From Truepera radiovictrix DSM 17093 (GTDB taxonomy: Bacteria; Deinococcota; Deinococci; Deinococcales; Trueperaceae): DNA of 64,000 nt. Position numbers and translations under genes: made by a program. The notes beneath the pieces are model-generated. The model was not told the origin of the DNA, ran no database searches, and was given only the letters and a program-made list of their open reading frames with translations. The DNA is taken from the NCBI RefSeq assembly GCF_000092425.1, contig NC_014221.1:2795001-2859000 (forward strand), given 5' to 3'. Shown here one piece after another: positions 19,038-53,952 of this stretch; the stretch's first letter is position 1; every line of letters begins with the position of its first letter.

Positions 19038-19077
19038 TATGATGGCTTTTATGTTCGCCGACTCCAGGAGGTGCTAG
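19038..19077 (+). promoter_or_regulatory. TATGAT -10 with leaderless mini-ORF ahead of the methyltransferase gene
   Basis: TATGAT (19038-19043) ends seven bases before ATG 19051. That ATG opens an 8-codon frame (MFADSRRC) ending TAG at 19077, two bases before the GTG of the methyltransferase. The mini-ORF contains the AGGAGG that serves the main gene, so ribosomes finishing it could reinitiate directly. Confidence 0.5.
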
Positions 19078-31143: not shown

Positions 31144-31860
31144 ATGGACCCGCAGCAGCTCACCCGGTCGCCCGCCACCCTTAGGCAGCTCGCGCGGCGC
31201 GCGGCGTGGCTCCTCGCCCTGCTGAGCGCCTGCGCCCCCGCCCCGGCGCCCCGGACGCACGTCGTGCAGAGCGCGCAACCCGCGACCTACTACCCGCGGC
31301 AGACGGGGGCCACCTGGCGCTTTTTACCCGAGGGGGAGCGCCGCGACGCCCCCCCTTTGGTGCAGCGCGTCGAGGGACCGACGGTGGTTGACGGCGCGCG
31401 CCTCATCGCGTGGCGCACCTTCGGCCGCGGCCTCGACCTGCGCACCTACCGCGACTACCGGCCCGAGGGGGTCTTTATCGTCCGCGAGGAGGGTCCCGGT
31501 TACGTCACCACCACCTCCCCACCCATCCAGGAGTGGCCCGCCGAGGGGACGCTCGCCGTCGGTCTCAGCTGGGGTGGGCAGACGCGCGCGACGGTGCACT
31601 TTACGAGCGCCCAGGAGACGCGCGCGTTCGCGCTCACCTACCGCTTCGAGGTCGTCGACGCGCGCACCGTCACGGTCGACGCCGGCACCTTCGAGGTCTT
31701 CGTGGTCGCCTTTGAGAGCGCCTCGTTAGGCCCCGGCGGCGAGGTCCTCGAGACGCTGCGGCAAGAGGTGTGGTTTGCCCCCTTCGTCGGTGAGGTGCGC
31801 ACCGACAGCGGGCTCTTCCTCGTGTCGACGACGCTACAGGCGGCGCCCACAGACCCCTGA
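31144..31860 (+). CDS. Putative lipoprotein
   Basis: 238 residues from an ATG three bases after the preceding stop. Residues 1-30 form a basic then hydrophobic signal with lipobox LLSAC. The mature part is all-beta: YYPRQTGATWRFLPEGE, then DYRPEGVFIVREEGPGYVTTTSPPIQEWP, and a closing VWFAPFVGEVRTDSGLFLVSTTL. That last motif is common in surface lipoproteins that read out as hypothetical. Role unknown; lies in the outer envelope by inference. Confidence 0.65.
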   Translation: MDPQQLTRSPATLRQLARRAAWLLALLSACAPAPAPRTHVVQSAQPATYYPRQTGATWRFLPEGERRDAPPLVQRVEGPTVVDGARLIAWRTFGRGLDLRTYRDYRPEGVFIVREEGPGYVTTTSPPIQEWPAEGTLAVGLSWGGQTRATVHFTSAQETRAFALTYRFEVVDARTVTVDAGTFEVFVVAFESASLGPGGEVLETLRQEVWFAPFVGEVRTDSGLFLVSTTLQAAPTDP

Positions 31861-31953: not shown

Positions 31954-31987
31954 ACCGTGTCCTACAAAGTGCTTAGAAGGGGTCTGC

Positions 31988-31993
31988 TAGACT
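31988..31993 (+). promoter_or_regulatory. -10 (TAGACT) upstream of dxs
   Basis: TAGACT ends 5 nt before ATG 31999 of a mini-ORF and 72 nt before the dxs ATG. No good -35. Confidence 0.45.
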
Positions 31994-31998
31994 GCCCT

Positions 31999-32079
31999 AT
32001 GCTACAACGCACGCCGGAAGTGTCGGCGAACGCCACCTCCTCTTGGCGTTGGGAAACGGGGTCGCATGGGTGTTCTTGA
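31999..32079 (+). CDS. Leaderless upstream mini-ORF overlapping the dxs start (26 codons)
   Basis: ATG 31999 lies at the expected transcription start of the TAGACT promoter. The 26-residue frame (MLQRTPEVSANATSSWRWET and on) ends TGA at 32079, 14 bases inside dxs. The peptide has no recognisable function. Its probable role is translational coupling or regulation of dxs; that is inference. A chance frame is possible. Confidence 0.35.
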   Translation: MLQRTPEVSANATSSWRWETGSHGCS

Positions 32080-39046: not shown

Positions 39047-39102
39047 CCGTCCCCCCGCCCCGCTGCACCGGGGCGCGCGGTCGACCTCATGGCAATAAGC
39101 AC
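39034..39102 (-). CDS. Leaderless upstream mini-ORF overlapping the VWA gene start (22 codons)
   Basis: TAGACT (39113-39108) ends five bases before GTG 39102, which opens a 22-residue frame (VLIAMRSTARPGAAGRGDGC and on). It ends TAG at 39034, 13 bases inside the VWA gene. The design matches that at dxs. Coupling is inference. Confidence 0.33.
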   Translation of the reverse strand: MLIAMRSTARPGAAGRGDGCRR

Positions 39103-44839: not shown

Positions 44840-44879
44840 GTAGGTTCGTGGTCGGCGGCGCTTTCACGCGCCCAGCTTA
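44814..44879 (-). promoter_or_regulatory. TAAGCT -10 and leaderless mini-ORF ahead of the small membrane protein
   Basis: TAAGCT (44879-44874) ends six bases before GTG 44867. The 17-codon frame from it ends at 44814, 26 bases inside the 46-residue gene. Confidence 0.3.
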
Positions 44880-53890: not shown

Positions 53891-53952
53891 ACGCTCTCCC
53901 CAACTGCGCCTATGGCTCGCTCGTTGCAAGGCGCCTTGACGATGACGCCCAC
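53887..53952 (-). CDS. Leaderless upstream mini-ORF coupled to the ugp operon (21 codons)
   Basis: TATGCT (53964-53959) ends six bases before GTG 53952. The frame (VGVIVKAPCNERAIGAVGES and one more) ends TGA at 53887, overlapping the permease GTG in the classical GTGA arrangement. Real translation is inferred from this geometry only. Confidence 0.42.
   Translation of the reverse strand: MGVIVKAPCNERAIGAVGESV

Follow-up and report, generated by a model that had tools for sequence, protein, structure and literature searches.

In mycobacteria, an AUG or GUG at the 5' end of an mRNA suffices for translation (PMC9094748), and leaderless small open reading frames (ORFs) that end at the starts of downstream genes are over-represented, with their layout conserved and their sequence not (Shell et al. 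2015, PMC4633059). Here, we analyzed a mini-ORF of this appearance at the start of dxs in Truepera radiovictrix DSM 17093, within a window of 64,000 nt (C1:2795001-2859000) of its genome (G000; 3,260,398 bp, a single contig). The dxs layout is real and nonrandom and, judged against the open-licence literature, is best seen as a kind already known from mycobacteria with a new occurrence in Deinococcota. It has in common with the class of Shell et al. a short, unannotated, apparently leaderless out-of-frame ORF whose stop falls where the following gene begins (+14 here), a frequency above expectation, and a layout that is kept across species while the peptide is not, at dxs (G000, G001, and G013) as well as at polA. 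With its overlap of 14 nt, it corresponds to their "overlapping" subclass and not to the RTGA-coupled one. In contrast to Mycobacterium, Truepera belongs to another phylum and uses an extended -10 promoter of the Deinococcota type, and the mycobacterial cases are backed by transcription start site and ribosome-profiling data. A further difference, and the point that we add, is a reading-frame switch between orthologues, in which the leaderless start is in frame with the gene in some genomes and opens an out-of-frame mini-ORF in others.

Three other systems invite comparison. The E. coli mRNAs with a 5'-terminal uAUG and uORF (Beck, Fleming, and Janssen 2016, PMC4965119) likewise open with a 5'-terminal AUG that precedes the start codon of the gene itself, and translation of the uORF alters the downstream gene to varying degrees. 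However, these are a few individual mRNAs picked for having a conventional leader and Shine-Dalgarno (SD) sequence, and leaderless translation is a rarity in E. coli. The ORF-adjacent -10 region of Deinococcus-Thermus (PMC12340547; survey in PMC3160421) shows the same promoter-start geometry in the same phylum, but for genes in frame with the leaderless start; a term search of these sources turned up no mention of coupled mini-ORFs. Finally, the Cys-rich small ORFs with a regulatory function in mycobacteria (Canestrari et al. 2020, cited in PMC9094748) are also short and leaderless and located upstream of a gene, but their Cys codons are conserved and they act in sensing, whereas the peptides here are unconserved.

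The dxs mini-ORF and its promoter

Table 1. Features at the dxs locus, in window coordinates, and the polA locus of G000
Feature	Position	Strand	Remarks
Upstream gene	31144..31860	+	205 nt from dxs; 238 aa; Pfam search without match
Possible upstream promoter element, TACAAAG	31963..31969	+	18 nt 5' of the -10; putative function
Extended -10, TGC-TAGACT (TGCTAGACT)	31985..31993	+	Top score against 246 leaderless-gene promoters of G000
Putative leaderless mini-ORF, 26 codons, ATG 31999 to TGA 32077-32079	31999..32079	+	-10 spacing of 5
SD-like GGGGT for dxs, weak and tightly spaced	32057..32061	+	-5.9 kcal/mol with assumed anti-SD
dxs, 1-deoxy-D-xylulose-5-phosphate synthase, 626 aa	32066..33946	+	Pfam PF13292, PF02779, PF02780
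polA, G000	L157:11953	-	Orthologues L320-L325

The geometry reported for this locus in the preliminary description is exact: TAGACT (31988-31993) ends 5 nt before ATG 31999-32001, and the 26-codon frame (MLQRTPEVSANATSSWRWETGSHGCS) stops 14 nt inside dxs. Its TGA lies in the dxs codons CTT-GAA and owes its presence to the use of CTT, a rare codon (6% of those for Leu), ahead of GAA; it is the sole stop in that frame across the 300 codons scanned in G000. In the dxs of the sister genome G001, the next stop in the mini-ORF frame does not come before codon 158, and only 10% of genes have a stop this early in that frame. For dxs itself, ATG 32066 is the sole in-frame start, with none further upstream.

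Starts with leaderless spacing, defined as an ATG or GTG 5 to 7 nt after TANNNT, were counted in a sample of 1.264 Mb of G000 (1,088 crude gene calls), with the expectation taken from spacings of 10 to 40 nt. The 246 in-frame starts found against 37.5 expected agree with the roughly 40% of leaderless genes published for Deinococcus-Thermus (PMC3160421). On a position weight matrix derived from these promoters, the dxs promoter reaches 14.8, where the leaderless-gene promoters have a median of 10.5 and 0.07% of control TANNNT sites attain the dxs value. From its position, we predict a transcription start at 31999, within 1 to 2 nt, and the dxs mRNA probably begins directly at the mini-ORF start codon. 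Alternatively, the ATG could be a coincidence, with the transcript beginning elsewhere or reading through from the upstream gene and the mini-ORF staying untranslated. That gene is on the same strand, and a search for a terminator between it and dxs found none, so longer read-through transcripts over dxs are possible; dxs also lies close behind the upstream gene in several relatives, and one such site is not improbable by itself. Nonetheless, a promoter score at the top of the leaderless class, a -10 spacing inside the leaderless peak of 5 to 7, and an ATG that keeps its spacing in G001 and G013 despite differing leaders make a chance origin improbable.

A TTGACA-like -35 element was looked for upstream of the dxs -10 and not found, and TACAAAG recurs 19 nt 5' of the dxs -10 in G001 and G010. 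The claim that dxs lacks a clear SD proved too strong for G000, where the energy of GGGGT is close to the median of nonleaderless genes, although its spacing is indeed tight. The dxs SD is about average in strength in G000 and G013, the latter having the better one, and is almost absent (-2.6) in G001. Because two patterns for the 3' tail of the 16S rRNA, scanned over the complete G000 genome, gave no match, a conserved anti-SD was assumed for these energies. Masking or an unusual tail could account for the missing match.

Conservation of layout and peptide at dxs

At the dxs promoter, TGNTANACT is kept in G001, G013, G010, and G006. A comparison of the frame in related species, which the preliminary description had called for, revealed that in G000, G001, and G013 this motif is followed after 5 nt by an out-of-frame ATG opening mini-ORFs of 26, 17, and 18 codons, respectively, which end at +14, +14, and +23. 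The corresponding ATG of G010 and G006 (spacings of 6 and 7) reads in the dxs frame, and no other usable start for dxs was found there. These five genomes with a leaderless-spaced ATG at dxs are not monophyletic in the dxs tree, and at many other dxs loci of the family, the leader is longer and includes an SD, or the gene starts close behind the upstream gene. In several relatives, the dxs start adjoins the apparent end of the same upstream gene as in G000, which suggests an old operon. The ATG spacing is held in G001 and G013 although the remaining leader differs, and the mini-ORF peptides of these two genomes and of G000 have nothing in common. A layout that is conserved while its peptide is not suggests, at the level of sequence comparison, a role in ribosome loading. 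A sequencing frameshift was also considered as the cause of the dxs layout and ruled out, since three genomes with different leader lengths agree.

The unrelated peptides bear as well on the idea of an amino-acid-sensing attenuator, in which the mini-ORF would serve as leader peptide. Its 26 codons include two for Trp and one for Cys, and a hairpin (AACGCCA-CCTCCTCT-TGGCGTT) is present before dxs. However, no conserved run of sensor codons was found among the three peptides, folding of the leader is ordinary overall (z-score of 0.03), the terminator search was negative, and the Rfam scan matched only tRNA, with no family for the dxs leader. We rejected the attenuator, which is extremely improbable. 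The same lack of common sensor codons and the ordinary fold leave unsupported the proposal that start-site choice controls isoprenoid flux.

Overlapping mini-ORFs as a genomic class

In the G000 sample, ATG mini-ORFs at spacings of 5 to 7 whose stop falls 1 to 15 nt inside the next gene number 14 distinct cases (15 -10 matches were counted, one start having two) against about 2.0 expected, with no excess of those stopping before the gene or deeper inside it. When the comparison is limited to ATGs within 130 nt of a gene, the out-of-frame frames stop 1 to 15 nt inside the gene in 14 of 24 cases at leaderless spacing and, for the control spacings, in 14 of 86 (Fisher p=9e-5). GTG mini-ORFs show little excess (9 versus 6.1 expected), and our statistical claim is therefore built on the ATG cases. 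Samples of two other genomes of the family point in the same direction (3 versus 0.5 and 3 versus 0.9). The layout is thus beyond chance as a class, whereas one site by itself is not significant. The 23 members amount to 2.1% of the 1,088 genes sampled; their overlaps are mostly 4 and 8 nt, against 14 nt at dxs, and measure 1 or 4 nt in 12 of the 23. A weak SD does not mark the class, as the SDs of the downstream genes are no weaker than those of other genes.

Four further sites in the window had been described as repeating the dxs geometry, and two of them fit the class: at 39102, a GTG start with a stop at +13 within a VWA-domain gene, and at 53952, a GTG start with a GTGA overlap with an ABC permease gene. 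The ATG at 19051 has true leaderless spacing, but the frame that it opens ends after 8 codons, 2 nt short of an RlmL-type gene that is strongly SD led; at 44867, only the spacing stands, as the ORF that follows lies antisense to a more convincing gene and no credible gene remains. As overlapping mini-ORFs, 19051, 39102, and 53952 are unconserved in the relatives examined, apart from the permease in L242 (a 22-codon frame at a spacing of 8).

Conservation is broader elsewhere in the class. For 7 of the 13 members with an orthologue retrieved, G001 keeps an out-of-frame mini-ORF of leaderless spacing whose stop is at or near the gene start, some orthologue start positions having been set by eye; the class frequency of 2.1% in the G000 sample serves as the base rate for this comparison. 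The seven are dxs, polA, rpiA, a carboxyltransferase-like gene, a membrane protein, and two further genes; names other than those of dxs and the Pfam-scanned genes of the window were read from sequence by the analyst. Since the same layout precedes the unrelated polA, rpiA, and carboxyltransferase-like genes, a control specific to isoprenoids, as originally suggested, is not borne out. The clearest case, and a better showcase than dxs, is polA, which has overlapping mini-ORFs in six genera (G000, G001, G006, G009, G010, and G013; overlaps of 4 to 11 nt) and an in-frame leaderless start in G003, G004, G017, G018, and G049. For a GNAT-like gene and the VWA gene, the leaderless start is out of frame in G000, and in the relatives examined it is in frame.

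Proposed ribosome loading and frame drift

We consider it somewhat probable that the dxs mRNA is leaderless for the mini-ORF, that its 5' AUG loads ribosomes, and that dxs is reached by termination-coupled restart or through an opened weak ribosome-binding site. In this scenario, RNA polymerase would use the extended -10, starting at A31999 or within 1 to 2 nt, and the 5' AUG would load a 70S ribosome. After terminating at the TGA within dxs, this ribosome would be left beside AUG 32066, where dxs translation would start either by reinitiation or once a ribosome gains access to the weak site, now opened. On the simplest reading, the gene start would be the 5' AUG itself, when in frame, or a nearby codon after a short out-of-frame run, and the mini-ORF would be a ribosome-loading device evolutionarily interchangeable with an in-frame leaderless start. 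The original idea of a leaderless AUG starting a translated mini-ORF and then dxs gains from the genome-wide spacing statistics and from the layout kept without its peptide. Its reinitiation step fares less well, as reporter studies find coupling to be best at stop-start spacings of -4 to +3 and to fall with overlap (PMC12548453). The overlaps of dxs in G000 (14 nt) and in G013 (23 nt) are outside this efficient range, and 14 nt should give poor coupling. The 12 of 23 class members that overlap by 1 or 4 nt fall within it.

This opens the way for another hypothesis, in which the mini-ORF is translated yet acts as a brake: dxs would initiate alone at the weak GGGGU, and ribosomes coming from the leaderless AUG would mostly occlude that site. 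Because coupling falls with overlap and the dxs overlap is long (longer still in G013, where the SD is better), such a model stays viable, and the average predicted strength of the SD-like stretch in G000 and G013 makes independent dxs initiation possible. We nevertheless regard a brake as rather unlikely: G001 keeps the mini-ORF with a dxs nearly devoid of an SD, G010 and G006 use the same 5' AUG as the dxs start and hence productively, and the class overall is enriched at coupling-type overlaps.

Returning to ribosome loading, we tentatively extend it to a model for Trueperaceae, in which the 5' AUG is kept as the entry point and the leaderless frame is nearly free to drift. An indel in a fast-evolving N-terminal tail would turn a leaderless gene into a mini-ORF plus internal start, and back again, and would be tolerated as terminating ribosomes restart at a nearby in-frame codon. 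The dxs, polA, GNAT, VWA, and polyprenyl-synthase genes may be snapshots of this switch. If the ribosome-loading reading is correct, an unannotated mini-ORF mediates the expression of a number of genes in Deinococcota, dxs and polA among them, and the leaderless AUG would have to be reckoned with when gene starts are annotated, promoters engineered, or reporter fusions built in this phylum. The orthologue frame switch would then be a natural experiment in how reinitiation buffers frameshifts near the 5' end.

Two further genes deserve mention. In the polyprenyl-synthase-like gene (L168:19001, minus strand), the leaderless GTG of G000 is out of frame, with a run of seven C before the ATG, and that of G001 (L289) is in frame. 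This could reflect a switch of frame, slippage, or an error in the sequence, a sequencing frameshift being possible for single cases such as this one. In a gene of unknown function (L178:19347, minus strand; L314, L315, and L316), a leaderless-spaced mini-ORF of 12 to 19 codons is kept in G000, G001, G013, and G006, with its stop 1 to 4 nt inside the gene and with unrelated peptides.
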